A stretch of DNA of 19,164 bases. It comes from Deltaproteobacteria bacterium (GTDB lineage: Bacteria > Bdellovibrionota_F > JAHFAK01). The stretch covers positions 1 to 19,164 of the forward strand of contig JAHFAK010000032.1 of NCBI GenBank assembly GCA_023250585.1, given 5' to 3'. A program made the translations under genes and the position numbers. Below, piece after piece: positions 1-15,499 of this stretch; position 1 is the stretch's first letter, and each line of letters starts with the position of its first letter. The notes beneath the pieces are model-generated. The model had not been told where the DNA came from. It ran no database searches and saw only the letters and a program-made list of their open reading frames with translations.

Positions 1-3
1 GGT

Positions 4-3000
4 ATGAAAAAAAGATATGCGCTGGTAACATCAACGTTAACGAAACTCTTTCTTGTCTCTCTTATTATTCTTTGTCTCTTTTCTGGAAAAGAACTATATG
101 CTTTCAATCATTTAGAAACTACAAAGATTGTATCCGTTATCAACGGAGAAATCTATAGTACTATATTCCCTACTCAAGATGAGGATCTTGCCTATGTGAA
201 TTTCCCTTTTAGTAAGGGCGATGAAAACACTCTTGAACTCAGAATTTATATTCAGGGAAATCCTCGAGAACTACCCGAAAAATTAATATTAAGAACTAAT
301 TTGAATATAGAAATTAAAAGATTGAACGAAATCATTGAAACACTCTACACTTTGGTATCTGAGGATACGAGAAAAGAGCTCCTTGTTGAATTACGAGAAA
401 TTCTTCGTGCGGGACTCTTTGAAACTCGAATACCATCGAACGAATTAAAAATAGAAAAAGGAGAATTGTATTACTCATTCATCTTAAAACCTACGACAAG
501 TCAATTTGCTCGAGGATTTATTGAAAGTACAGGAGGTAAGAAAATTATGTTAGGTCTTTCTCGTCATAATACATTGCTTCCAGAATTTACAATGAAATTC
601 TATAAAAGAGAATTAACTCATGGAGTAGGAGTTTATGGTTTTAATATTAACTATGCCAAACCAGCGGACAGAGACGAAGAAGCTACTCAAATTCCTATTT
701 TTAACACAGCCCTTCTCAATCGATTGTACCTGAGTAAACTTCAAGTGGATGATGCAAAAAAGCTCCTCAGTCAAATAATCAAGGGGTTTTTGGAACAATT
801 AAGCTGGCCAAACGAAGGGTTGCTTGCAAAACGAGGGCTTCTCTTAACAAACGATAACACGAGGTTCGTTTTGAATGGGTACTATAATGGAGAAGTACGT
901 ATAGACGACTTACCCATTTCTTTTCATGAATTTTTACTAAATTTTCAACGCCAGGAATTACTTTCAATGATTGAAAAGTACTGGCAAAAATCATTGATGA
1001 ATGAAGAAGCCTTTTTATTACTCAAAAAAGCCTTTGGAGAACCTATCAATGAAGAAGCAGTTCCGTATGAAAACATATATACGTATCGTGTTGTAAAAGC
1101 TCCGGATGGTCAACCACTCCAGATCCCTGATTTTTATGAAACAAGTTTAGCAGTAACTACAGAGCAACTGGAGTTTGGTTTCAGCCATGTCTGGATTAAT
1201 CCTGGCGAATTTGAGAATGATAATAGAATTCCGGTGAACCCACTTACTTTTAATCTTAAAGACAAAGATAGAAGAGCTCATACAGTTTTTTGGGGATTAA
1301 GTGTCTCTGAGTTTCCTGCGGCTCTCATGTTGTATTCTCCTCGTGCAAGCCGAGGAAGCTCATTATTTGGTTCGAATGATGCACTCCAAAAAGCATTTGC
1401 TGCCTATAGAAAAAGTGGACTCGTTCCCATTATAGATTGGCCGGATCCTCATCACATAGCTCAAGTCGAGGGTTATGAGTTATCGGGGAGCGAAACATTA
1501 TACCGAAACCTTGATGAAGTGCTTAGGTTATTTGGTTATAGCAGAAAAGGACCTCACCCCATCAACATTCAAAATGATATCATCATAGATGAAGAAGGAC
1601 ATGAGATTCCCTTCTATCAATTGACTATGGCAAAGGGTCCATCTATTGATGAGGATTTAATCATAACTGAGTCCTACCCCAGAATGTCAGAAAAACCAGG
1701 AGCCCCGAATGAAATTGGGCATGGTCCATATTATAGTTCTCAGAGGGGTAATGATATATTCATGAGTTGGGGTAATGTTAATACACCCAAAACAGAAGAT
1801 GAATTGGTGAAGCTCCTATTTTGCCTTGCTAAACTAGATTTTTTAAGAACTATTACTGGTGGAAATTTAGATCAAAAATTTATTGTTCGCATTGATGCAC
1901 TACCCGCGTATTCTCATTTTAGGGAGACTTCTGGTAGGCCTCTTATTGAAGGGCTTTCTAATGTAGTACTCGCGGTATTTCCAAATTCACTTATTATGGG
2001 TGAAATCGTCGGTATGTTTACCGAGGAACAAATTACTCGTTATGCGAAATGGGTACATATCGTACAAGGTGCTCCTCTTGGTGCACTCAATACAGGGAGA
2101 TATGCCGAAACAGCGGCCCCAGGTCTTTATAAGAATGAAGGATCTCTGAGTAATGCGGAGACCATTCTTTTTGCAGCAAGCTTTATGAGCAGAGCTGGAA
2201 CTCCCGCTCCATTCAGAGACGTTACTGACCAAAAAGGTGCTGGTGCTACTTATAAAAGAGATTTTGTTGATAAGAAAGGTAATCCGGTAACGCGAGGAGA
2301 TTACCATGATAGCGCAAGCCTTTTTCCTAATTATATTTCACGAGGTTCAATTGGTCCTCGTGAAGTTGTAGCCAATAGGATGGGGCATAAAATTATAAAA
2401 GATCAACACCCATTCCAAACATTAGGCAGTTGGGCTTTCTATGCACTGGGAGGAGACGGTATTGCAATGACACTCCCAGGTCAATTTATTTGTAATCCAT
2501 GTCCGCAAGATTGGCAGGTATCAAATAAAGAAGGTGTATTTTTTATGCCACGAGATGATAAATATATAGTCCAAACTCTTGGACTTTCACCTGAGGAAGC
2601 AGAAGAAACAGAGGCTATCCGAGCATCAATACGAGAAATATCTGAGACATTTCATAAAAATTTTATACTATTTTATGCGTATATTCAGGAAAAAAAAGAT
2701 TTTACGGTTATTCCCATTAAACGATTAAGCGCGGATGGAAAGCTTATAGGTAAACTTCATATATCTCCTGCGTCTGGTTACTTTTTTCATTTTCTTAACA
2801 CTGATTTTCCCACTTTTTCGTTCCACCTTGATTTTGAAAAGCATCCTCACCCGAGAACTCCTCAGGAGACACCTCATATATCAGAAGAAGAATTCGCGTT
2901 ATTATTGAATGCAGCAAATAAATTTGGGGATCATTTAGTAGAATTGCCGTTGGGTATACCGAGAACCGATAGTTTAGCTGCTTCAATGCACCTTAAAAAA

Positions 3001-3222
3001 GAAAATGGATTTCTTATACTTGAGTTTAATCCGAGAACGAGAGGATATATTGACCATTATGAAACACTCATTGTAATGAATAGTGAATTACTCAATGGAT
3101 ACTATGAATATAAAAAAGAAAATGGAGAAAAAATAGTTGAAGCATCAAAGCATTTAGAAGAAGAAAAGAGAGCCTATGAAGAGGACAAGTTAAAAAAAGT
3201 ACGGAACTGTATAATATTTTAA
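4..3222 (+). CDS. Secreted protein with a divergent GH13 (alpha-amylase-like) core, probably not a standard hydrolase
   Basis: This is a 1072-residue protein with a Sec signal peptide (basic MKKR, hydrophobic residues 13-28, likely cleavage after about residue 33, LYA). Residues 34-430 match nothing I recognise. Residues about 440-760 follow the GH13 barrel order. A region I-like VPIIDWPDPHH has D478 and H483 at canonical spacing, but P482 replaces the usual Asn. A GNVN stretch lies at 590-593. Region II is VRIDALP, with R629 and the nucleophile position D631. Region III is MGEI, with the acid/base position E667. The AGTPAPFRD segment at 731-739 resembles the GTPxIYYGDE segment after region IV. 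No Asp occurs between 667 and 739, so the region IV Asp appears to be missing. The C-terminal 220 residues look beta-rich. The protein may be a glucan-binding or altered-activity member. It is first in a plus-strand series with an unknown membrane protein and malK. The region upstream of the ATG lies outside the window. The GH13 assignment rests on motif reading only. Confidence 0.62.
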   Translation: MKKRYALVTSTLTKLFLVSLIILCLFSGKELYAFNHLETTKIVSVINGEIYSTIFPTQDEDLAYVNFPFSKGDENTLELRIYIQGNPRELPEKLILRTNLNIEIKRLNEIIETLYTLVSEDTRKELLVELREILRAGLFETRIPSNELKIEKGELYYSFILKPTTSQFARGFIESTGGKKIMLGLSRHNTLLPEFTMKFYKRELTHGVGVYGFNINYAKPADRDEEATQIPIFNTALLNRLYLSKLQVDDAKKLLSQIIKGFLEQLSWPNEGLLAKRGLLLTNDNTRFVLNGYYNGEVRIDDLPISFHEFLLNFQRQELLSMIEKYWQKSLMNEEAFLLLKKAFGEPINEEAVPYENIYTYRVVKAPDGQPLQIPDFYETSLAVTTEQLEFGFSHVWINPGEFENDNRIPVNPLTFNLKDKDRRAHTVFWGLSVSEFPAALMLYSPRASRGSSLFGSNDALQKAFAAYRKSGLVPIIDWPDPHHIAQVEGYELSGSETLYRNLDEVLRLFGYSRKGPHPINIQNDIIIDEEGHEIPFYQLTMAKGPSIDEDLIITESYPRMSEKPGAPNEIGHGPYYSSQRGNDIFMSWGNVNTPKTEDELVKLLFCLAKLDFLRTITGGNLDQKFIVRIDALPAYSHFRETSGRPLIEGLSNVVLAVFPNSLIMGEIVGMFTEEQITRYAKWVHIVQGAPLGALNTGRYAETAAPGLYKNEGSLSNAETILFAASFMSRAGTPAPFRDVTDQKGAGATYKRDFVDKKGNPVTRGDYHDSASLFPNYISRGSIGPREVVANRMGHKIIKDQHPFQTLGSWAFYALGGDGIAMTLPGQFICNPCPQDWQVSNKEGVFFMPRDDKYIVQTLGLSPEEAEETEAIRASIREISETFHKNFILFYAYIQEKKDFTVIPIKRLSADGKLIGKLHISPASGYFFHFLNTDFPTFSFHLDFEKHPHPRTPQETPHISEEEFALLLNAANKFGDHLVELPLGIPRTDSLAASMHLKKENGFLILEFNPRTRGYIDHYETLIVMNSELLNGYYEYKKENGEKIVEASKHLEEEKRAYEEDKLKKVRNCIIF

Positions 3223-3265: not shown

Positions 3266-5032
3266 ATGTATAATAAACAAACTCTTATCTTTTTTTTATT
3301 TTTTTATTCATTATGCGTAAGAGTTTTGGCTGATGACTCTGAACTTGAAAAACTACTTAAAATTAAATACAGCGGCTCTGAGGTTTTTTTTAGTGTTGGA
3401 GGAGATGGGTCCCTTGGTCATAATGAATTTATTGAACCTGAAAAAGTATCCATTAGAATACACGGGACAATAACGGATTTTCAAGATCCTAATTCACCAC
3501 AAGGAACTGTTGTTTTACATAAGCTATCTAATGTACCTGACACGTCAGCGTTTAAAAGAATTTCCTCACAGCAGTTTATTCAAAGAGTAGGAAATACCTT
3601 GCATGAACCACCAATAATAATTACTGAAGGATATATCCATCCTGATGATGAGCGCTTAATACGCCATCTCAAAGAAAAATATGGAGTTGATCCAATAGTA
3701 TTTGTAATTCCAGAGCCAGATCATCTTGATGAATGGATTTTGAAAATAAAAAAACGCGATGCTATTTCAGACGAAGAAATAACAAAACTCCTCTTAAAAG
3801 GAGAATTGAGAAAATTGATTGATAGAACACTAAAAACTGAAGATGAATTGCTTAAAAGAATACGCATTGATGACATCCGATGGATATTGTCAAAACTAGA
3901 AGAAGATACGCAATTGGATTCTAGAAGAATGCATGAATTGACGCATCTAAGGAGTTATTTTCAGGAATGTATTAACTCCAGGGAACATCTTTCTGAAGAA
4001 AAAAAAGCAGGTATTTCAGCGTTAGCGAATGTTAAAGATTTTTTTGTTCATCAATATAAAAAATCAAAATATATACGCGCTCCAATTACCATGGATGCGA
4101 TATTCGCAACAATACCAAGAGCATTAATTCCTTTCATTAATAGTAGTGTACTGCTTTTTATAAATAGAAATGAAGTAAGCTCAATTGAAAGAGGATTGTC
4201 GTATATTGCATTAAGTTTTGGATTTTCAGTTGGTTTCGGGTTGATATCACAGTCAGTACTGAATTGGATAAACTATTGGAGCGACTTTACTCGAGAAGGA
4301 TTAAGTCCAGCAATCAAAAGATTTAAAACGTATTTAGAGGATCAGGAAAGAAAATTAATCAATACACGAAGCGCACTAGAATCTACAAAAAATATTTTAA
4401 CAGCATTTAATCTTGCGCAATCTTCTTTAGTAAAAATTGGAAAATTAAGTGTACCTGTTTTACAATTGTTAAGTGCTCGAGGCGATGTATTGATTGCATG
4501 CCCATCTTTCGGCATATTTTGTGTTTATTTATCGCGACTCATTCTCGGTCCAATGGGTGAAACACATTCGGTTTTTACACTCTCAGGCGTTGGTATGGTT
4601 ATTTGGAATGTAGTTCTTGGAACTGTTGCTGGAGGTCCGTGGAACGAAATGATAACCCATTTACGGGCAGTGGGGAAAATTTCAAATAAATTAGCCATCT
4701 GGCTTGCTGCTTTAGATACCGTAAAGATGGAATTTGGAAGAGTCGCTGATTTTGGCTATCAAAAGCTCTATAATGTTATGCAAGTTATTTTTGCTACTAC
4801 TTTTTGGAGTACCCTTGCCATAACAAATTCACTCTACCCAAAATCCAATTCAACGTATGTAAAAGATTCAGCAAGTTTACGTTATCTTCAACAACTCTAT
4901 GAGAATTTCTCTCGTAATGAAGCCGTTATCAATGCACTCGAATGTAATAGATCAATCGATGAATCTAAGAAAGGTACAAACGGTTTAAAAAATACAATAA
5001 AGACCTTTTGTAGGAAGGTCTTCGGCAATTGA
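3266..5032 (+). CDS. Unknown exported, multi-spanning membrane protein
   Basis: This is a 588-residue protein of unknown function. The ATG at 3266 is chosen because GAGGGG lies just upstream and because it puts a clean signal peptide at the N-terminus (MYNKQ, hydrophobic core, VLA|DDSE). An upstream in-frame TTG at 3233 lacks both. After the signal peptide comes a charged region of about 240 residues, with a beta-rich first part (GGDGS near 45-49) and a helical, Glu/Lys-rich second part. Hydrophobic segments follow near 278-298, 310-334, 408-426, 436-455 and 500-520, so the C-terminal half is probably membrane-embedded. No catalytic motif, ATPase signature or known transporter motif was recognised. 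It lies 43 bp after the GH13-like gene and 42 bp before malK, all on one strand, which suggests co-transcription and a role connected with glucan uptake at the envelope. That role is inferred only from position. Confidence 0.8.
   Translation: MYNKQTLIFFLFFYSLCVRVLADDSELEKLLKIKYSGSEVFFSVGGDGSLGHNEFIEPEKVSIRIHGTITDFQDPNSPQGTVVLHKLSNVPDTSAFKRISSQQFIQRVGNTLHEPPIIITEGYIHPDDERLIRHLKEKYGVDPIVFVIPEPDHLDEWILKIKKRDAISDEEITKLLLKGELRKLIDRTLKTEDELLKRIRIDDIRWILSKLEEDTQLDSRRMHELTHLRSYFQECINSREHLSEEKKAGISALANVKDFFVHQYKKSKYIRAPITMDAIFATIPRALIPFINSSVLLFINRNEVSSIERGLSYIALSFGFSVGFGLISQSVLNWINYWSDFTREGLSPAIKRFKTYLEDQERKLINTRSALESTKNILTAFNLAQSSLVKIGKLSVPVLQLLSARGDVLIACPSFGIFCVYLSRLILGPMGETHSVFTLSGVGMVIWNVVLGTVAGGPWNEMITHLRAVGKISNKLAIWLAALDTVKMEFGRVADFGYQKLYNVMQVIFATTFWSTLAITNSLYPKSNSTYVKDSASLRYLQQLYENFSRNEAVINALECNRSIDESKKGTNGLKNTIKTFCRKVFGN
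5000..5022 (+). other. Perfect 8-bp hairpin at the 3' end of the membrane-protein gene
   Basis: AAGACCTT and AAGGTCTT pair perfectly around a 7-nt loop, overlapping the last codons before the stop at 5030-5032. No T-run follows, so it is not a standard intrinsic terminator. It could modulate read-through or mRNA stability before malK. Confidence 0.4.
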
Positions 5033-5074
5033 TTGTTGAAATATCTGCGTATTCTGATACTATTAAGGACTCTT

Positions 5075-6175
5075 ATGGCATGTGTAACACTCAAGAATAT
5101 TAATAAGTCTTTTGGAAAAATACAGGTTATTCATGAATTCAGTTTAGATATCGCTGATGGAGAGTTTGTCGTCTTTGTTGGACCATCAGGATGTGGGAAA
5201 ACGACATTACTACGAATGGTTGCTGGACTTGAAGACATAACTAAAGGAGAAATGTATATAGATGGTCAGCTCGTAAATAACATTGAACCAAAAGATCGTC
5301 GGATTGCGATGGTCTTTCAGAATTATGCACTGTACCCACATCTATCAGTAAGAAAAAATATTGAATTTGGATTAAAAATGCGCAGGTTTCCGAAAAAAGA
5401 GATTCAAGAAAAAGTTCTATGGGTATCACAATTACTGAAGATTGAAAATCTCTTAGATCGTAAACCAAAAGAACTATCGGGAGGCCAAAGGCAGCGTGTT
5501 GCTATGGGGAGAGCTATTGCACGTGAACCAAAAGTTTTTTTATTCGATGAACCTTTATCCAATCTTGATGCAGATTTACGGGTAACAATTCGTACCCAAA
5601 TAGCAAAACTCCATAATGACCTCAAGATTACAACTATTTATGTAACACATGATCAAACAGAGGCAATGACGTTGGCGCATAGATTAGTCATTATTAATGA
5701 GGGGATTATTCAACAGGTTGGATCCCCCATGGAAGTTTATCATAACCCAGTTAATCAATTTGTCGCTGGTTTTGTTGGGACCCCACAAATGAATTTTATA
5801 AGCATGGCACCTTCTTTTCAGGATACTACTATTCACTTTAAAAGGAGAGACTTTTCATTTTCACTTTCTAGCGAACGGTATGAACGATTACGGGTATATG
5901 AAAATCGGGCAATCATCGTTGGTATTCGACCTGAATTTATCAAAATATATCCTCAAAATGAACGTTATCCCATACAGCTGAGTGCAACTATAGAAGTTAA
6001 AGAGCTGCTTGGCCATGAGACTTTATATTCTATAAGTATTGGAGAGGAAAAGAAGTTATTCACTCGTTCATTCCCTTTTGAAGATTATCCCGTTGGCGAT
6101 GTTATCCCTGTTTCATTTCAGGAAGACAGACTTCTCTTTTTTGACAAAGAAACGCAAAAACGTATTTATATATAG
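5075..6175 (+). CDS. malK: Sugar ABC transporter ATP-binding subunit (MalK/UgpC/MsmX family)
   Basis: This 366-residue ATPase would power maltodextrin import at the cytoplasmic face of MalFG. The ATG at 5075 is chosen over an in-frame TTG at 5033 because AAGGA sits 5 nt upstream and the protein then begins with the family-typical MACVTLKNINKSFG. All nucleotide-binding elements are intact: Walker A GPSGCGKT (36-43), Q-loop Q82, signature LSGGQRQ (134-140), Walker B FLFDEP with D158 and E159, D-loop LSNLDA, and switch H192. Residues from about 235 to the end form the OB/TOBE regulatory domain typical of sugar-porter ATPases (VGTPQMNF, later GIRPEF). Length is normal for MalK. It lies on the strand opposite malEFG, and its stop is only 5 bp from the stop of the amylase gene. 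Partnering with MalFG is inferred because no other sugar permease is in view. A shared ATPase serving several porters (MsmX-like) is equally possible. Confidence 0.93.
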   Translation: MACVTLKNINKSFGKIQVIHEFSLDIADGEFVVFVGPSGCGKTTLLRMVAGLEDITKGEMYIDGQLVNNIEPKDRRIAMVFQNYALYPHLSVRKNIEFGLKMRRFPKKEIQEKVLWVSQLLKIENLLDRKPKELSGGQRQRVAMGRAIAREPKVFLFDEPLSNLDADLRVTIRTQIAKLHNDLKITTIYVTHDQTEAMTLAHRLVIINEGIIQQVGSPMEVYHNPVNQFVAGFVGTPQMNFISMAPSFQDTTIHFKRRDFSFSLSSERYERLRVYENRAIIVGIRPEFIKIYPQNERYPIQLSATIEVKELLGHETLYSISIGEEKKLFTRSFPFEDYPVGDVIPVSFQEDRLLFFDKETQKRIYI

Positions 6176-6180
6176 ACATC

Positions 6181-7782
6181 CTATTCGATTATTTGATCGT
6201 ATCTGCTATAGCCATTAGCGGGGATAACAATATTCGGTTTTAAAATGAATACTTCATAAGGAGGAATACCTAATTCTAAGGTTCCGGCATGTACAATAAA
6301 ACTTTTTTTCGATAGTAAATCGTTGAGTTCAGTATAATCTTGTATTTTACTTTCAGGTATTTGAATAAATTCTTGTATTTTTTTATTGGTTGGATTCATT
6401 ATTATGAGAATACATTCATGTATTGAATCTGTGGTACGCATAAAAGCAAAGCTCGTTTTGCTTGTAAGTTTTCGAAAGTTACCATAGCGTAAAGCTGGTT
6501 CACTTTTTCGAATGTGGATTAACCTTTTAAACAAGGTATATATTGAATTGGTGTTCTTTACTAAATCCCATCGCATTGGAGCTCTTTGGGCTGGGTCCTC
6601 GGCGCCTTTCATTCCAACTTCACTTCCATAATATATACACGGAGATCCCGGTAAGGTAAGTTGCAACACCTGAGCAAGTTTTATTTGAAAGGGCTTTTTG
6701 AGTATACTAGAAAGACGTTGTGTATCGTAATTATCCAGAACGATCCATGATTTTAAGATATTTTCTATTCCCGCATCGTGAATCATTTCTTCCCACATAT
6801 CGAGAGCTATTGGTCCCGAGATTTTTCCTTCTATCAAAGCAAGTATAAGTTGGCGTGCATGCATATTAATAATGCCATCAACAACAGTAAGCCACTTTTC
6901 TGGATAATTATACGTTTCTCCAATCGTTATGCTATCTGATTTTGCCGAATGAGCGGCAAGGGTAATTTTTTTGAGGGTAGAAAATCCAATATCATGGGCT
7001 ACATCAAGCCTCCATCCATCGATATTTTCATTGCGAAGGTAGGATTGAAGAATAGAATTTTGATCTAAAAATATATATTTTTGAACTGATTCATGGAGAA
7101 GATTCAGTTCTGGTAAACTCTTTGCATTACTCCATCCGATATAGGTATTATCCTGGGTAAATTTGAAAAAATCTCGGTAGGTACTTTGTTTGTTTTTTAA
7201 TGCATCAATAAACAGGGGGCTTTTATCACCCATATGATTAAAAACACCATCCAGAATAACACGCATTCCTTTTTTGTGAAGAACTTTAATGAGTTCAACA
7301 AGTTCCTCATGAGTTCCATAGGCAGGATCTATTTTTATATAATCAATCGTATCATATTTGTGATTAGTAAAAGCATGAAAAATAGGATGGAAATAGATAA
7401 CCTCGATCCCTAATTCTTTGAGATAGGACAACTTCTTTTTAAAACTTGCAAAATCGCCTCCCCAAAATTCTGTTTCATGGGACCAAACACTATACTTTTC
7501 TAAGTATTGTCCTTTCTTAGGTTTATCATTCCATGAGGTGTGTAATTTCTTTGGTGAGGGATAGAGGTATTTTTTTTTCTCTACATTTTCTGGTTGTGAA
7601 AATCTATCGAGAAAAACTTCATAGACAATATGGCCGATTCTCCAATCATTTTTTCGTTTTACAAAAAGGTCTTTTTCGTTAGATTGAATCATAGAGTGAG
7701 CACTTTTTAGGGTAATAAGTATATTTAATAAGAAGAGGAGATAGAAAGTCAATTTAAAATCCGAGTTGCATTGATGTTTCAT
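6181..7782 (-). CDS. Secreted alpha-amylase, GH13, neopullulanase/cyclomaltodextrinase-like
   Basis: This 533-residue glycoside hydrolase is predicted to cleave alpha-1,4-glucans outside the cytoplasm. The ATG at 7782 overlaps the malG stop as ATGA and begins a signal peptide (MKHQ, hydrophobic core, cleavage near AHS), so longer readings starting near 7893 are rejected. Barrel motifs, numbered from this start, are: region I VILDGVFNH (D178, N182, H183), region II GWRLDVAHD (R258, nucleophile D260), region III ITIGETYN (acid/base E289), and region IV LDNYDTQR (D353), where Tyr replaces the usual His. The HKYDTIDYIKIDPAYGT stretch and PELN before region II resemble maltogenic amylases and neopullulanases. 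PGSPCIYYGSEVGMKG follows region IV. The N-terminal carbohydrate-binding domain typical of true neopullulanases is mostly absent. As the last gene of malE-malF-malG, it would make the dextrins that this porter imports. Confidence 0.92.
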   Translation of the reverse strand: MKHQCNSDFKLTFYLLFLLNILITLKSAHSMIQSNEKDLFVKRKNDWRIGHIVYEVFLDRFSQPENVEKKKYLYPSPKKLHTSWNDKPKKGQYLEKYSVWSHETEFWGGDFASFKKKLSYLKELGIEVIYFHPIFHAFTNHKYDTIDYIKIDPAYGTHEELVELIKVLHKKGMRVILDGVFNHMGDKSPLFIDALKNKQSTYRDFFKFTQDNTYIGWSNAKSLPELNLLHESVQKYIFLDQNSILQSYLRNENIDGWRLDVAHDIGFSTLKKITLAAHSAKSDSITIGETYNYPEKWLTVVDGIINMHARQLILALIEGKISGPIALDMWEEMIHDAGIENILKSWIVLDNYDTQRLSSILKKPFQIKLAQVLQLTLPGSPCIYYGSEVGMKGAEDPAQRAPMRWDLVKNTNSIYTLFKRLIHIRKSEPALRYGNFRKLTSKTSFAFMRTTDSIHECILIIMNPTNKKIQEFIQIPESKIQDYTELNDLLSKKSFIVHAGTLELGIPPYEVFILKPNIVIPANGYSRYDQIIE

Positions 7783-8666
7783 TCTTTCACACTTCCTTTT
7801 GTTAATCCTTGCACAAGAAATTTTTGAGTAATCATGAAAATGATAACAATGGGGAGTCCTCCAAGAATTGTTGCCGCGGCAAATTTTCCCCATCGTATAT
7901 CATAAGCAGAAATAAATTCGCGCATCCCTACTGCAAACGTTAGGAGCTTTGGATCTTTGATGAGTATAGAAGGTATGACAAAATCTGAAAACACGGTAAT
8001 AAAAACCAAAATAAAAATAACAACGAGCATGGGTAGTGCTAACGGAAGTATTATTGAGTAAAATATAGTAAACTCTTTACAACCATCAATCATTGCAGCT
8101 TCAACAATAGATTTAGGGATCGTGCTAAAATAACTCTTTGTTAACCAAATAAAGAATGGAGTCATCCCGAGATAGGTAAGAATAAGACCAGCATGAGTAT
8201 CGAGTCCAAACCATGGGAAAAAAGTTCCGAGTTTTGAAAGAAGTAAAAATAAGGCAACCATACCCATCATCGAAGGAAACATTTGTAAGATAATAAGCGA
8301 AATCAAAAAATATTTTTTCCCGAAAAAAGTAAACCGGTAGAGGCCATAGGCAGCTAAAGTGCAAATAAAAAGAACAATGGCTGCAGTAATAGAAGCAATT
8401 TTTATGCTATTCTTAAACCATATGATGAAAGGATATGGGGACCTCACTACTTCTTGTGTTACTGTATTGATATAGTCTATTCCTAAAATATATTTCCAAT
8501 TATCTAAACTGAAATTTTGTACCGAAAATTCAATTACTAAGGTATCAGAACTTTCAAAGGAAGTTATCATAATGAAATATACTGGATACAATACAATCAA
8601 GAGGAAAAAAAGAAGTATAAGATTCGAACAAATTGCTATGGATTTTTTTTTGATTCGGTTCAACAT
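7779..8666 (-). CDS. malG: Maltodextrin ABC transporter permease MalG
   Basis: This 295-residue inner-membrane permease is of the binding-protein-dependent sugar type. Hydrophobic segments lie near 13-35, 86-110, 118-142, 157-178, 203-225 and close to the C-terminus, giving the usual six-helix plan. The cytoplasmic EAA loop (EAAMIDGCKEF, residues 189-199, continuing to LPLALP) is the docking site for the ATPase. The C-terminal GLTKGSVKE matches the typical MalG ending (GLTxGxVK). Its start overlaps the malF stop as TAATG, and its stop overlaps the amylase start as ATGA, so translation of the three genes is probably coupled. Nothing looks truncated. The sugar is inferred from MalE, from MalF and from the downstream amylase. 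Confidence 0.92.
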   Translation of the reverse strand: MLNRIKKKSIAICSNLILLFFLLIVLYPVYFIMITSFESSDTLVIEFSVQNFSLDNWKYILGIDYINTVTQEVVRSPYPFIIWFKNSIKIASITAAIVLFICTLAAYGLYRFTFFGKKYFLISLIILQMFPSMMGMVALFLLLSKLGTFFPWFGLDTHAGLILTYLGMTPFFIWLTKSYFSTIPKSIVEAAMIDGCKEFTIFYSIILPLALPMLVVIFILVFITVFSDFVIPSILIKDPKLLTFAVGMREFISAYDIRWGKFAAATILGGLPIVIIFMITQKFLVQGLTKGSVKE

Positions 8667-10066
8667 TATAGAGACTCTTCTTCTTTAAAAACTCCAGAAA
8701 TTTTAAAATTGAATATGCTCATCGATGCGATAAGAATAAAAATGATGACTGCAATTGCGGAGGCAAGACCAAAATTATTAGAGCCAGATGGGCCAAAAGC
8801 AAGTTTATAGGTATAGGATATAAGAAGATCGGTTTCACCTCCCATAGTGTTTGTGTCTACCATAGGAGGATTACCTCCACTAAAAAGATATATGAGGTTA
8901 AAGTTATTAAAGTTAAATGCGAATGTGCCAATCAGAATGGGAAGCATGGGTTTATAGAGCGATGGGAAGGTAATTTTAGTAAATCGATGAATAAACCCTG
9001 CTCCATCAATTTTTGCTGCGTCATAAAGATCTTGAGGTATTGATTGTATGAGGCCAAGACAAATAAGCATCATATACGGAAATCCAACCCATAAACCTAC
9101 CATAAGACAAGCAAGCTTTGCCCACAATGGATCGAGCAGCCAAGGAATTTTTATGTGCAAGATATAAGAGACGAGTTTATTCATAGGACCAAAACTGAAG
9201 TTAAAAATAGCTGACCATACCATTGCAGAAAGAAATACGGGAATTGCATAAGGTATGAGAAATCCTACTCGAAATATCTTTTTGCCATATATAGTTTGAG
9301 AACTGAGTAATGATGCAAGAATAAGACCAAATATGAATGCGGAAATAGTCGACCCTGCAGCCCACATAAGAGTCCAAAGAAAAATTTTGAGAAAAGGAAT
9401 TCCAAAAGAAGTGCCTTTGAAGAAATTGAGATAATTTTGGAACCCTATTCTTGTTACAAAACCAGGGAGGAGACGATCTCCAGAAGGTGTCTCAAAATAT
9501 CCAGTCGAAAAGTCTGGTTGATATGTACTATTCGTTTTCGTATCGATAATAGTACTAGTATTTAATTCCTTATACCGTTTTTGTACTTCACTGAGTGTAG
9601 TAAGGGAAGTAAGCTTATATATTCGATTTTCGATTTGAAAAGTAGTTCTCTCTAAATGTGTAAGATGCTCAATAAATTGTTCAGAAGTTGCGGTATTCTT
9701 ACACGATGAAAGTTTTTTATATTCATCAATTGAAATTTGAGTTCCGGTAAGTATCTCTTCAGTTTGAGTATTTCTTGGAAGAAAGATCTGATACGCTTTC
9801 CTTTCTGATTGTTTCATGTAGAGGATGAAGGCATTATTTTTTTCAAGTATATTAAAATCAAGTATAGCAGCATTGTCGGGATAAATTACTTCTTCTAAAA
9901 TAATCTTCTTTGCTTCAGTACAATTAAGAATATGTCCTGTGCCTAAATTGGTCAAAGATATATAAAAGGTATAGAGCAAAGGATATACGATGAGAAGCAA
10001 AAAAGAGACAATAGAAAAGAATAAATAGCAATAAGGTGTAATCTTTTTTTTACTCTTTACTTTCAT
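8666..10066 (-). CDS. malF: Maltodextrin ABC transporter permease MalF
   Basis: This 466-residue permease pairs with MalG. A first membrane helix (about 14-38) is followed by a hydrophilic, presumably periplasmic stretch of about 175 residues (41-215). Five more hydrophobic segments then follow (near 225-255, 265-290, 315-340, 372-392 and 432-455). The EAA loop is DAAKIDGAGFIHRF (349-362). The segment GGNPPMVDTN...TDLLISYTYKLAFG (397-425) is characteristic of MalF-type sugar permeases. In Escherichia coli MalF the big periplasmic loop comes after the third helix; here it directly follows the first, so the topology differs. The gene starts 9 bp after the malE stop, and I see no strong ribosome-binding site before its ATG, so it may rely on coupling to malE. 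It ends in a TAATG overlap with malG. Confidence 0.9.
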   Translation of the reverse strand: MKVKSKKKITPYCYLFFSIVSFLLLIVYPLLYTFYISLTNLGTGHILNCTEAKKIILEEVIYPDNAAILDFNILEKNNAFILYMKQSERKAYQIFLPRNTQTEEILTGTQISIDEYKKLSSCKNTATSEQFIEHLTHLERTTFQIENRIYKLTSLTTLSEVQKRYKELNTSTIIDTKTNSTYQPDFSTGYFETPSGDRLLPGFVTRIGFQNYLNFFKGTSFGIPFLKIFLWTLMWAAGSTISAFIFGLILASLLSSQTIYGKKIFRVGFLIPYAIPVFLSAMVWSAIFNFSFGPMNKLVSYILHIKIPWLLDPLWAKLACLMVGLWVGFPYMMLICLGLIQSIPQDLYDAAKIDGAGFIHRFTKITFPSLYKPMLPILIGTFAFNFNNFNLIYLFSGGNPPMVDTNTMGGETDLLISYTYKLAFGPSGSNNFGLASAIAVIIFILIASMSIFNFKISGVFKEEESL

Positions 10067-10075
10067 TAAGCATAA

Positions 10076-11269
10076 CTAGTTTCTCGAAGATTTTTTTATA
10101 ACATCGACAGCTCGATTTAATGCTTGAGAAACTGATTCTTTATCTCTCGTAATCAAACTAAGTGTTGTCTTCATGGTGCCAAAAACCGATGCCATTGTTC
10201 GAACATTTGGCATCGGAGCTCCTTCTACATAAGCATTTGAAAACCCTTCAAGATCAGCTTTATAAATTGGATCGTCTTTTAACTTATTGTATGCGGTCTT
10301 AATGGCGGGAGCTCTTCTTTCTTCTTTATATAATCTGATGAGAGCATCATCTTGGTAAATATAGTTTTCTATAAATGTCTTTATAAGAATTTTATGCGTA
10401 CTCATTCGCGAGACATAAAAACCATAACTTCCAATAAAAGGGAGTGCTTTTTTCCCTCGGATCGTTGGTATTGGTGCGATACCATAATCTATTTTGGCAG
10501 CTTGTAGCTTAGGTAAAGACCAAGCTCCGTTTATCATCATAGCAAGTTTTCCGGTGATCATAAAACGCATCATAGTATTATAATCAACATCAATAGGCAT
10601 AAGCGTTTTTTCCCCGGAACCCTTCGGAGGGATCGTAAAACTTTTAATATAGGTTGCCGCCTCGATTGCTCTTTTTGAATTGAGCCCAATATCCCTTGCA
10701 TTCGGTCCAAATATATATACATCGAAAGCTTTAAAGATAGGATAAGAAAAATAGAAGTCATTAACGGGAAAGAGAAAACCATAGTGATCATTTTTGGTGA
10801 AATTTTGTGCTACCTTTAAAAGCTCCTCAAAAGTTTTCGGAGGAATTTTTATCAGCTTTTTATTATAAATGAGTGCTATATGTTCAAAATTATAAGGATA
10901 TCCATAGAGCTTCCCATTATAGGTAAAAGCATCAAGTGCCACAGGAAATATTTCTTTTCGTACTGATGGAGAAATTTCAACGGATGTTATCAGTCCACTT
11001 TCAACGAGAGTTCCAATAATATCATGAGCCCATACAATTACATCTGGACCTTTTCCTCCTAGAGCGTTTGTTTTAAATTGCTCAACAGTATTATCAACAG
11101 TTGCTGCCGAGATCGTTACCTTATATTTTTTATTAAAAGGCTGAGCAATTTCATTAAGTATTTTCGCAATATTCCCGTTAGAAACCCACAAGGTAATTTC
11201 CTTCTCTTCTGCTTTACTCTGAAGAGAAGTGCTTACAAAAATGATACAAAGAAAAAAAAATACTTTCAT
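10076..11269 (-). CDS. malE: Periplasmic maltose/maltodextrin-binding protein MalE
   Basis: This 397-residue solute-binding protein delivers maltodextrins to MalFGK. The N-terminus is a Sec signal peptide (MKVFFFLCIIFVSTS, likely cleavage after SKA) without a convincing lipobox, so the mature protein is probably soluble in a periplasm. Family signatures of the bacterial maltose-binding type are clear: GGKGPDVIVWAHD (about 71-83), the YNGKLYGYPYNFEHIALIYNKK region (about 117-138), PPKTFEELLK, and the late MINGAWSLPKL segment (about 242-252). AAAGGAA lies at normal distance before the ATG. It is the first gene of the malE-malF-malG-amylase series, and a TATAAT box lies 33-38 bp upstream. Length matches the family. 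Ligand identity is inferred from these signatures and from the flanking glucan enzymes. Confidence 0.92.
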   Translation of the reverse strand: MKVFFFLCIIFVSTSLQSKAEEKEITLWVSNGNIAKILNEIAQPFNKKYKVTISAATVDNTVEQFKTNALGGKGPDVIVWAHDIIGTLVESGLITSVEISPSVRKEIFPVALDAFTYNGKLYGYPYNFEHIALIYNKKLIKIPPKTFEELLKVAQNFTKNDHYGFLFPVNDFYFSYPIFKAFDVYIFGPNARDIGLNSKRAIEAATYIKSFTIPPKGSGEKTLMPIDVDYNTMMRFMITGKLAMMINGAWSLPKLQAAKIDYGIAPIPTIRGKKALPFIGSYGFYVSRMSTHKILIKTFIENYIYQDDALIRLYKEERRAPAIKTAYNKLKDDPIYKADLEGFSNAYVEGAPMPNVRTMASVFGTMKTTLSLITRDKESVSQALNRAVDVIKKSSRN

Positions 11270-11391: not shown

Positions 11392-13506
11392 TTATTGCAG
11401 TTTGATACAAGTAAGAACAATATTCAGTGAAAGACTTTCATCCCGATCAAGAATTAAGGGAAAAAGCCACGTAAATGAACTACCTTGATAGGTGAGTTCA
11501 AATCCGCCTTCGGAAAGCGACACGGTCTCAACCGGAAAATGCCAAAGCGTTGCGGTGAGTTCTTTATTCTGAGAATCAAGAACGCGACAGGTAAGTTCGA
11601 ATTTATCCCATTCATTGATAAGTGAAAATGAAGATGTTTCTTCGATAATGCATTCTTTTGGGAGCGTGATTTCTTTATTAAATTTGATATAGCGATCTGG
11701 TGCATCTTTGGCGAGCATGGAGAGATTGAGTTCAATCCCCAGTAAGTGATTAAGTTCGTCATGAGAATGATTCGTAAGCGTATATTGAGCAAGTAGCGAA
11801 GCGTCTTTGATCGAAAAGTTCTTTTTAAGGTGAACGGGATATTTTTTTTTGCCATCCGTGATGATGCCACTTCGTTGCAAGTATATGCCATTATCGATTG
11901 AATATTCGTAGGGGGATGTCAGAAAATCTCCAAGCTCTTGATGCGAACATTTGCGGAAATCTTCAAATGCAATTGATGGTGCAAAACAATGATCCATAAA
12001 AGAATAACGCTGGTAATTATCATAAAATAAATTATTGTTTACCCGATGATCTTTTATTTTTAATTTTTCATGAATTGATTTTGGCTTTCCATCATCCGGA
12101 ATAATTTTTTTAAGCCGTTCATGATATGCTTCATACCGTCGTGCAAGGCAATTAGAAATATTAAAGTGAGGTTTTTTAAAATCAATTTCAAAAATAGATC
12201 CGCCGTAGGAAGGTTTTATAAAGGCATTCATTTCATTATTCGAAAGCCGTACTTCTTTTAATCCATCGCTATCTAAATCTCTATCTTCAATTGCCTTGGC
12301 ATCCAAATATTTTTCTGCCGCAATTATATTTGCGTAATTTGCATGGCGAAGGTAATTTAAATACGTTCCTCCAAAAACTCCATGCCAATATGAACAGTTG
12401 CATTGACTCATATACAAATGCTTAGCGGCTTTGTCTGCATCACTGGTTCCAAAATAAGTGGGTTCTTGAATGCGTAACGCATTTACTTTTTTACTAACAT
12501 TCAGCATGCGTTTGTGCATGTTATTTACTTCTTCGTATTTTGTTAAAAAATTATTCCAAAAACCTCCACGAACAAATGGTTTGTATTCATCGTATACATT
12601 TTCTTCTTTCAGCTTATTCACCAAGTTTTGATAGGTGAGTATTGCGTGCGGAGGCATTGCCCATTCGAGCATTTCGTGATAGGAGGCGTTAGGAATATAC
12701 GTGCGTTTTGCGGGAGGAGCTTTCTGTAAGTAACGCCCAAAACTCGAAAATTCAATAGTGTCGCTTACTTTTGAAAATGCCTCAAAGAATCGATGGAGCC
12801 AGCGTTTTTCAGTAATAAAATTATACGTGCTTGGCCATAAACCAAATTTTTCACCATCATCGGCAAAGCTAATCGTGAGATCCTTATCTGGTTTTTCTTC
12901 ATGGATCTTTCGAAGATAATCAATAATTTCTTGAGGTTCTTTATAGGGAATAGCGTAACGAAGTTTCATATCAATGGGGAAGAGCTTTAGTGGATAACCT
13001 TCATGTTCAGTTATATAGTAGTCGGTAATTGTTGTATCTTGAATTCCCGCATAGCGAAAATGTGCATCATCAATAATGGTATATTCAATGCCAAGTTCAT
13101 TGAGCATTTTAGGAAGGGTTGGATCCCATATGCGCTCCGTAAGCCAAATGCCCTGTATGGTTCGGTTAAATCTTTTTTTGATATACTCCTGCATAAAACG
13201 TATTTGATTTTTTGCATCTCTCTCAGGAATCGATGGAAGGATGGGTTCGTAAAAACCTGCGCCCATAAGTTCGACTTGGTTTCTATCGGATAACATCTCA
13301 AGCAGCTCAAGTGCTTCATGGCCATTTTCTTCCATCCATTCTAGGACAGGTCCTGATATATGCAGAGAAAAAGATAAATTTGGATAATCCGCAATGGTTT
13401 TTAACAAAGGCAAATAGCAAACCGTGTATGCTTCTTTAAAAACATGTAAAAAATTTCCCACGGGTTGATGAATATGAATGCCAAATAAAAAGTTAATCTT
13501 TTTCAT
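11392..13506 (-). CDS. 4-alpha-glucanotransferase / alpha-amylase of family GH57
   Basis: This 704-residue cytoplasmic enzyme has no signal peptide. It is predicted to transfer alpha-1,4-glucan segments between chains (amylomaltase-type disproportionation), giving chains that suit the phosphorylase. GH57 motifs are in order: HIHQPVGNF (11-19), the MGAGFYEPILP segment (81-91), GIWLTERIWDP (119-129) with nucleophile E124, and SFADDGEKFGLWP (213-225) with the acid/base D216 or D217. These correspond to E123 and D214 of the Thermococcus litoralis enzyme. Residues from about 420 to the end match the beta-sandwich (DUF1926-type) C-terminal region of that enzyme. The protein is about 45 residues longer than the Thermococcus one. 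GAGGG stands about 12 nt before the ATG. The gene follows the phosphorylase by 25 bp, right after a palindromic repeat. Family members are annotated either as amylase or as glucanotransferase; the pathway context favours the latter. Confidence 0.9.
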   Translation of the reverse strand: MKKINFLFGIHIHQPVGNFLHVFKEAYTVCYLPLLKTIADYPNLSFSLHISGPVLEWMEENGHEALELLEMLSDRNQVELMGAGFYEPILPSIPERDAKNQIRFMQEYIKKRFNRTIQGIWLTERIWDPTLPKMLNELGIEYTIIDDAHFRYAGIQDTTITDYYITEHEGYPLKLFPIDMKLRYAIPYKEPQEIIDYLRKIHEEKPDKDLTISFADDGEKFGLWPSTYNFITEKRWLHRFFEAFSKVSDTIEFSSFGRYLQKAPPAKRTYIPNASYHEMLEWAMPPHAILTYQNLVNKLKEENVYDEYKPFVRGGFWNNFLTKYEEVNNMHKRMLNVSKKVNALRIQEPTYFGTSDADKAAKHLYMSQCNCSYWHGVFGGTYLNYLRHANYANIIAAEKYLDAKAIEDRDLDSDGLKEVRLSNNEMNAFIKPSYGGSIFEIDFKKPHFNISNCLARRYEAYHERLKKIIPDDGKPKSIHEKLKIKDHRVNNNLFYDNYQRYSFMDHCFAPSIAFEDFRKCSHQELGDFLTSPYEYSIDNGIYLQRSGIITDGKKKYPVHLKKNFSIKDASLLAQYTLTNHSHDELNHLLGIELNLSMLAKDAPDRYIKFNKEITLPKECIIEETSSFSLINEWDKFELTCRVLDSQNKELTATLWHFPVETVSLSEGGFELTYQGSSFTWLFPLILDRDESLSLNIVLTCIKLQ

Positions 13507-13530
13507 TATGATTATTTCCCTCTCCCAATT

Positions 13531-13602
13531 GTCATTCCCGCGAAGGCGGGGATCCAGTCTTGTTAAACTTTGTTTCTGGATTCCCGCCTTCGCGGGAATG
13601 AC
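13531..13602. repeat. Inverted pair of 27-bp palindromic repeats (CHSREGGNP-type, REP-like)
   Basis: Two 27-bp arms, 13531-13557 and 13576-13602, are inverted copies with one mismatch, separated by 18 bp. Each arm also folds on itself: ATTCCCGC pairs with GCGGGAAT around a 4-nt loop in the right arm, and the left arm does the same with one G-T pair. This is the widely scattered extragenic palindrome whose translation reads CHSREGGNP or PAFAGM. It is far more GC-rich than its surroundings. It lies at the phosphorylase/GH57 junction, and the phosphorylase stop codon (13532-13534) is inside the left arm. In the mRNA it would form a strong stem just upstream of the GH57 ribosome-binding site. Confidence 0.9.
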
Positions 13603-15499
13603 AGACTTTAGTTACTTCTTTCATGAGTGGAACATACGCTTTATCGCAATACTCTTGAATCATACGATGAGTTGAGAAGTAATGACATACTGATGCGAGC
13701 GCTTCTTTGTTCATGCTAATCCATGTATGAGGAAACGCGCTTGCTTGATTATAATACAATGGAAGAATTTGGGTTTCTAAGAGAGTATAGATGCTTTTAG
13801 CTTCTTCTTTATTTTGTTCTTCAATCGTTTTGTATTCTTTTGGCGTACCAATAATCCATCCATTTTTGCCATTGTAGGCTTCTTCCCACCATCCATCGGA
13901 AATACTTGCATTAAGACCACCGTTGAATGCAACTTTCATTCCGCTTGTTCCACTGGCTTCTTGCGGCCGCAACGGATTATTTAACCACATATCAACTCCT
14001 GCAACCAGAAACTTTGCCATTGAAATATCGTAGTTTTCGAGAAAGATCATTTTGGTTTTCAGGTTATGTTCTTTTATAAATGAAGTAATCATGTGGATAA
14101 GCATTTTGCCTTTAGCATCTTTAGGATGAGCTTTGCCTGCATAAATAATCTGGAGAGGATGTTCCGTATTGGTGAGCAGTTTGAGTAGTTGTTCAGAATC
14201 CTGCAGTAACAGTCCTGCGCGTTTGTATGTCGCAAATCTCCGCGCAAATCCAATCGTCAAATATTCAGGATTTAAAATCAGATTATGCGTTTTTTCAATA
14301 TACTGCATAAGCGCTTCTTTCATCTTTACGCGTACTTTAGAAAAAGATTCATCAGGAATGGTTTCAATTGTAGATCGCGATGCAAATTCTGCAGGGTTTT
14401 TTGTCCATTCCGGAGTAAGATGTTTATTCAAAAGCTCTTGCATTGGTCTGCCCATCCAGGTTGGATGATGAACTCCATTGGTAATAGAAATAATGGGAAC
14501 TTGGTCTTCAGTTTTTTCTGGAAAAAGTTTCATCCACATTTGTCGCGATGTTTTGCCATGAAGCTTACTTACTCCATTGCAGAATTGCGCAGACCGAAGT
14601 GCGCATACGGTCATGTTGAAATTCTCTTGAGGATCGCTTTCATTAATTTTTCCCAGAGCCATGAATTCATTGAGTGAAATTCCTAATTCTTTGAGATATT
14701 CGACAAAGTGATCTTCTATAAGTTTTTCATTGAACGTATCATGTCCTGCCGGAACAGGTGTGTGAGTAGTAAAAGTACAGAGACGAGCACATGCTGTTTT
14801 TGCTTCTTTGAATGAATAGTTTTTAGTGTTCATTAATGATCGAATAACTTCAAGTACAAGAAATGCGCTATGCCCTTCATTCATGTGATAAATACAGTTA
14901 TTATAGCCGAGCGCCTGGAGGGCTCGCACGCCGCCAATGCCGAGTACCATTTCTTGGCATAAGCGTTTTTCTTTATCTCCGCCATATAATGTATCGGTGA
15001 TTGCGCGATATTCAGGTTTATTTGCTTCATGATTTGAATCAAGAAGATACAGGCTCACGCGGCCAACCTGAACTTTCCAAATATAGGCAGAGACCAAATC
15101 TTTATTTATTGGAATAATAATACATAGTGGTTTTTTTACGTCATCAGTACATTGTTCAATGGGAATTTTTTTTGGCTCATTATCAAGATAGACTTCTTCT
15201 TGATGGCCTGATTCATTAATCGATTGGTTGAAATAACCCTGATGATAGAAAAGACCTACAGCGACAAGGGGCAGTCCTAAATCACTTGCGCTTTTTAAAT
15301 GATCTCCTGCAAGAATGCCAAGTCCACCTGAATATATTTTTAATGATTCATGAATACCAAATTCAGCAGAAAAATAAGCAATCGTAGGAGGAAGATCACC
15401 CACTGTTATTCCATATTTTTTTCGAAACCAGGAAATTTCTGGTTTTTTATCCGTTTCTTCCATAGAAGACAAAATATCTGTATGAGCTCCTGGCTGCAT
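13532..15499 (-). CDS. glgP: Alpha-glucan (glycogen/maltodextrin) phosphorylase, GT35
   Basis: This 655-residue PLP-dependent cytoplasmic enzyme releases glucose-1-phosphate from alpha-1,4-glucans. It is of the short bacterial/archaeal type. The TIAYFSAEFGIHES and YSGGLGILAGDHLKSASDLG segments (39-75), YHMNEGHSAFL, THTPVPAGHDTF, NGVHHPTW and EASGTSGMKVAFNGGLNAS follow the family order, with K522 as the PLP-binding Lys. An in-frame TAG lies five codons before the ATG at 15499, so the gene cannot extend upstream. It starts at WFRKKYG and lacks the DUF3417-type N-terminal extension of larger relatives. The start lacks an obvious ribosome-binding site; Met13 (15463) is an alternative. The last 23 residues (C633-E655, CHSREGGNP onward) are encoded by the palindromic repeat pair and replace whatever natural ending existed. 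It probably forms an operon with the downstream GH57 gene. Confidence 0.92.
   Translation of the reverse strand: MQPGAHTDILSSMEETDKKPEISWFRKKYGITVGDLPPTIAYFSAEFGIHESLKIYSGGLGILAGDHLKSASDLGLPLVAVGLFYHQGYFNQSINESGHQEEVYLDNEPKKIPIEQCTDDVKKPLCIIIPINKDLVSAYIWKVQVGRVSLYLLDSNHEANKPEYRAITDTLYGGDKEKRLCQEMVLGIGGVRALQALGYNNCIYHMNEGHSAFLVLEVIRSLMNTKNYSFKEAKTACARLCTFTTHTPVPAGHDTFNEKLIEDHFVEYLKELGISLNEFMALGKINESDPQENFNMTVCALRSAQFCNGVSKLHGKTSRQMWMKLFPEKTEDQVPIISITNGVHHPTWMGRPMQELLNKHLTPEWTKNPAEFASRSTIETIPDESFSKVRVKMKEALMQYIEKTHNLILNPEYLTIGFARRFATYKRAGLLLQDSEQLLKLLTNTEHPLQIIYAGKAHPKDAKGKMLIHMITSFIKEHNLKTKMIFLENYDISMAKFLVAGVDMWLNNPLRPQEASGTSGMKVAFNGGLNASISDGWWEEAYNGKNGWIIGTPKEYKTIEEQNKEEAKSIYTLLETQILPLYYNQASAFPHTWISMNKEALASVCHYFSTHRMIQEYCDKAYVPLMKEVTKVCHSREGGNPETKFNKTGSPPSRE

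Follow-up and report, generated by a model that had tools for sequence, protein, structure and literature searches.

The catalytic triad of GH13 enzymes consists of an Asp on strand beta4, a Glu on beta5 and an Asp on beta7. GH13-like proteins that depart from this set are on record: the rBAT/4F2hc ectodomains have an incomplete or unusual triad (PMC8537225), in BmaN1 the stabiliser Asp is replaced by His294 (PMC11448133), and incomplete or unusual triads also occur in some GH13_48 members from bacteria (PMC11239784). A GH13-like pseudo-enzyme would therefore have precedent. P0001, encoded at the very start of the 19,164-nucleotide stretch of DNA that was analysed here (the window), had been described in the initial annotation as a GH13-like protein with an eroded active site. 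Its sequence supports, weakly but above controls, a divergent secreted GH13-like protein, whereas the proposed erosion was not supported.

The features of the window are collected in Table 1. As had been proposed, the first open reading frame encodes a large protein with an N-terminal signal peptide, which, as judged by eye, is probably cleaved after residue 33. The window starts at a contig edge and shares its first 169 bases (window 1-169), apart from one mismatch at window 120, with an upstream contig (C119); on that contig the Shine-Dalgarno-like AGGAAAAGGT precedes the ATG at 4. A minus-strand gene further upstream on the same contig showed a weak match to the cupin domain of mannose-6-phosphate isomerase. 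In the region ahead of the putative barrel, which had been described as unexplained, the N-terminal ~350 residues gave no meaningful match in profile searches.

Table 1. Positions of the features discussed, in window coordinates (residue numbers refer to P0001)
Feature	Position	Strand	Remarks
P0001, putative GH13-like secreted orphan	4..3222	+	one open frame, 1072 aa, ATG at 4; start backed by upstream contig
Probable signal peptide, residues 1-33	4..102	+	positively charged start, then hydrophobic stretch, LYA/FN
beta2-like FGFSHVWINPGEFEN, residues 391-405	1174..1218	+	beta2 block scores highest here, 11.9 bits
CSR-VI-like FWGLSVSEF, residues 429-437 (GlgB SWGYQVTGY)	1288..1314	+	hhalign; MAFFT placement agrees
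CSR-I-like LVPIIDWPDPHH, residues 473-484, D478 and H483 (GlgB DWVPSHF)	1420..1455	+	blocks, hhalign
Proposed CSR-II KFIVRIDAL, residues 625-633, R629 and D631	1876..1902	+	R.D pair; block score -9.8, weak
CSR-III-like FPNSLIMGEIVGM, residues 659-671, E667	1978..2016	+	top CSR-III block placement, 8.8 bits; top hit of the C-terminal half
Candidate CSR-IV DYHD, residues 766-769, H768-D769	2299..2310	+	sole HD in the protein; block score near zero
CSR-VII-like GGDGIAMTLPGQF, residues 816-828	2449..2487	+	top beta8 block placement, 10.4 bits for 810-830
Orphan protein, signal peptide and about three membrane segments	3266..5032	+	588 aa; no Pfam match
MalK/UgpC-type ABC ATPase	5075..6175	+	NCBIfam, Pfam; similarity from codon 15 of the ORF starting at 5033
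AglB-like cyclomaltodextrinase (GH13), probably exported	6181..7779	-	Pfam/NCBIfam; probable start codon 39, adjoining malG end
MalG, MalF, MalE of maltodextrin importer	7779..11269	-	NCBIfam, Pfam
GH57 amylase/glucanotransferase and alpha-glucan phosphorylase	11392..15499	-	NCBIfam, Pfam

Searches with P0001, whole or in pieces, against Pfam, NCBIfam, PHROGs and PDB sequences gave nothing meaningful; in Pfam there was no match at E-values up to 1 (whole protein) or 10 (pieces). The PF00128 profile, run on the genome of origin, found AglB and not P0001. No relative was found in 59 or in 386 diverse genomes, nor in the second genome that represents the class, in a collection that holds only two genomes of the source phylum. 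None was detected in species genome contigs (two scans with different peptides), viral contigs (four scans) and plasmids, where the contig scans require exact matches of 7-8 residues, which distant relatives could escape. The frames of three weak hits were read, and these encode unrelated proteins. AlphaFold models of whole P0001 and of residues 371-880, both computed without relatives, had a pLDDT of 33, too low for a meaningful fold search.

The residues on which the GH13 assignment had been built (D478, H483, R629, D631 and E667) are present at the positions claimed, with P482 in place of the region I Asn. With free spacing, the pattern D....H / R.D / E occurs in 25% of shuffles (1.2% for a stricter version), and the bare motif set therefore proves little. 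For an ordered block test, 49 aligned GH13 domains supplied profile blocks of beta2, VI, I, II, III, IV and beta8, which were placed with free gaps. P0001 scored 40.8 bits (shuffles 26.2 +/- 4.9), a value reached by 4 of 500 shuffles and 2 of 182 real proteins used as decoys, none of them among the 45 with at least 800 aa; as several test designs were tried in succession, tail counts from those with a favourable outcome err somewhat on the optimistic side. True GH13 proteins obtained 108-205 bits in the same test. The beta2, I, III and beta8 blocks line up in order in P0001, where beta2, III and beta8 score higher at 391-405, 659-671 and 810-830, respectively, than anywhere else in the chain. 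When the C-terminal half was used alone, its first hit on a generic GH13 profile was again region III.

A second line of evidence came from hhalign, in which P0001 was compared with a profile of 22 branching enzymes (GlgB). Residues 429-520 aligned with a score of 32.2 (P = 0.0035) in the CSR-VI to CSR-I register of GlgB. None of 136 shuffles reached this score, and one of the 182 real-protein decoys was higher (34.5). The top two decoys (34.5 and 31.1) are GHL10 glycosidase-type barrels according to Pfam, and the best of the others scored 24.7. Ordinary HMM scores of P0001 did not exceed shuffle level, that of the GlgB profile included, and a block test restricted to GlgB, with spacings taken from the family, did not pick the GH13 path (23.3 bits, reached by 65 of 400 shuffles). 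Set against the four to seven conserved regions expected of GH13, CSR-VI, I, III and VII were found in order and above controls, and II and IV were weak.

The motif spacings of P0001 (153/36/102/48) fall outside those of GH13_8 and GH13_9 branching enzymes (70-71/53-54/68-69/36-50). Over the catalytic domain the branching-enzyme HMM scored at shuffle level, and hhalign aligned only CSR-VI/I. As the branching-enzyme profile, the spacings and the GH13 Pfam profile all gave negative results, P0001 was filed in neither group and is described as GH13-like. Other assignments were discarded. GH77 amylomaltase had been suggested by eye, from VRID and a stretch resembling GE-x-x-G close to regions II/III, and the GH77 profile gave an hhalign P of 0.2 at an irrelevant place; a eukaryotic-type debranching enzyme (GH13_25) was dropped, P0001 having no PF14701 match. 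When the P0001 core was aligned with AglB and two GlgB proteins from viruses, region III fell on the beta8 strand of GlgB, which was judged to be a misalignment.

Erosion of the active site had been deduced from the region I Asn and from the stretch behind E667. The Asn is likewise missing from the branching enzymes examined (0 of 22; all 22 have S, A or G there), and its absence does not indicate erosion. Residues 668-738 indeed contain no Asp, D739 being the first after E667. A region IV Asp need not, however, lie before 739, as the distance from the region III Glu to the region IV Asp spans 56-104 in 13 GH13 proteins; D739 (+72), D742 (+75) and D769 (+102) all lie within this range. Because the CSR-VII-like strand GGDGIAMTLPGQF, comparable to GGEGYLNFMGNEF in L062, is found at 816-828, region IV may lie up to about 800 and need not end at 739. 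From 739 to 769, ahead of this strand, the chain carries six Asp, of which one belongs to an HD pair. The distance from H768-D769 to CSR-VII is 48 residues, compared with 50 in GH13_8 and 36 in GH13_9, and an HD at such a spacing is expected by chance with a probability of about 0.03. Placed on D742 or D769, the region IV block scored about zero, and no candidate exceeded zero by more than 1 bit. The other two putative triad residues, D631 and E667, occupy plausible places. D769 is put forward as the candidate region IV Asp, and given the spacing of H768-D769 near that of GH13_8 the catalytic set may be complete. An alternative beta8 at RAGTPAPF (730-737) was rejected, the best beta8 placement being 810-830. 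For claims of a missing catalytic residue in general, an anchored beta8 strand is needed before a spacing is assumed.

A sugar porter had been placed beside P0001. The immediate neighbour is instead an orphan membrane protein, and it is the next gene that encodes MalK of a maltodextrin ABC importer locus. The orphan, for which no relative was found in 59 genomes, probably starts at ATG 3266 after GAGGGG rather than at TTG 3233. The genes for P0001, the orphan and the MalK-type ATPase lie on the same strand, and those from AglB to the phosphorylase converge on them. For AglB, which apparently has a signal peptide of its own, a start at codon 39 is probable because the longer ORF overlaps malG. 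In region IV this protein reads NYD (VLDNYDTQR), where NHD is usual. In the source genome (96.7% complete) GlgA, GlgB and GH77 were not detected above cut-off, though alpha-glucan phosphorylase is present, and a catabolic role of P0001 would therefore fit. Elsewhere in the window, 17553-19055 encodes a secreted protein in which about ten repeats of 105 bases (35 residues), 89% alike and of the WG_beta_rep kind, follow one another in tandem.

Of the readings considered, the least probable is that P0001 is not a TIM barrel and carries its motifs by chance. The frequency of the loose motif set in shuffles, the plain HMM scores at shuffle level and an anchoring that was partly chosen during the analysis speak for it, yet the block test and hhalign lie above nearly all controls with order and register right, and the gene sits inside a maltodextrin locus. 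P0001 is thus read as probably a glycosidase-type barrel. For a barrel of another kind, GHL10-like or of an undescribed family, speak the scores of the two GHL10 decoys against the GlgB profile, which flank that of P0001, and region II of P0001, which is not GH13-like. Pfam, however, detects both decoys easily and finds no GHL family in P0001, and GH13 is in keeping with the DW...H motif and with the maltodextrin setting. We therefore consider a barrel outside GH13 unlikely, and the balance of the evidence favours GH13 likeness.

A GH13-like barrel could still have lost the region IV Asp; P0001 would then be a secreted pseudo-enzyme that binds glucans next to the importer. The gap without Asp at 668-738, the low scores of all region IV candidates and the recorded proteins with incomplete or unusual triads (PMC8537225, PMC11448133, PMC11239784) are consistent with this. 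Against it, the spacing between regions III and IV extends up to 104 in GH13, the CSR-VII-like strand leaves six Asp at 739-769, one of them in HD, and absence of the region I Asn is normal in branching enzymes; a pseudo-enzyme appears improbable to us.

The reading that we prefer, to which we give somewhat less than an even chance, is that P0001 is a secreted, extremely divergent alpha-glucan-active enzyme of clan GH-H (GH13-like). Its barrel would span about residues 385-830, with long insertions, behind the N-terminal region. D631 would serve as nucleophile, E667 as acid/base and D769, together with H768, as stabiliser in the usual retaining mechanism. To judge from the locus, such an enzyme would probably cleave or rearrange external starch or glycogen; its products could then be imported by MalEFGK and, in the most economical model, broken down inside the cell by GH57 and the phosphorylase. 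It seems rather unlikely that P0001 is the first member of a new family of glycosidases or subfamily of GH13, so far of one genome in a deep bacterial lineage, and that it either has a non-standard catalytic set or, as a secreted protein, handles glucans without catalysis. If P0001 is a GH13-like enzyme, the alpha-amylase superfamily extends to a sequence that escapes standard profile libraries, and a maltodextrin-scavenging locus gains an extracellular step.

Among described systems, the readable motifs of P0001 (CSR-VI, I and VII) appear to resemble most those of branching enzymes. With GH13_8 and GH13_9 GlgB proteins it shares WG.xV[ST] in CSR-VI, S-S-x-F-G, DW...H without Asn and GG[ED]G in CSR-VII. 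Unlike GlgB it is secreted and without a Pfam match; insertions lengthen the I-II interval by about 80 residues and the III-IV interval by 33, whereas the II-III interval is 17 residues shorter. GHL10 glycosidase-like barrels (PF02638) obtain a similar hhalign score against the GlgB profile, but P0001 has no GHL10 match in Pfam. AglB, a GH13_20 cyclomaltodextrinase encoded nearby in the window, likewise belongs to the maltodextrin locus and is apparently exported, but it is an ordinary GH13 protein to which P0001 has no detectable sequence similarity. The rBAT/4F2hc ectodomains, BmaN1 and some GH13_48 members are of the kind that had been proposed for P0001 in the initial annotation; in P0001, D769, D739 and D742 are candidates for the region IV Asp.
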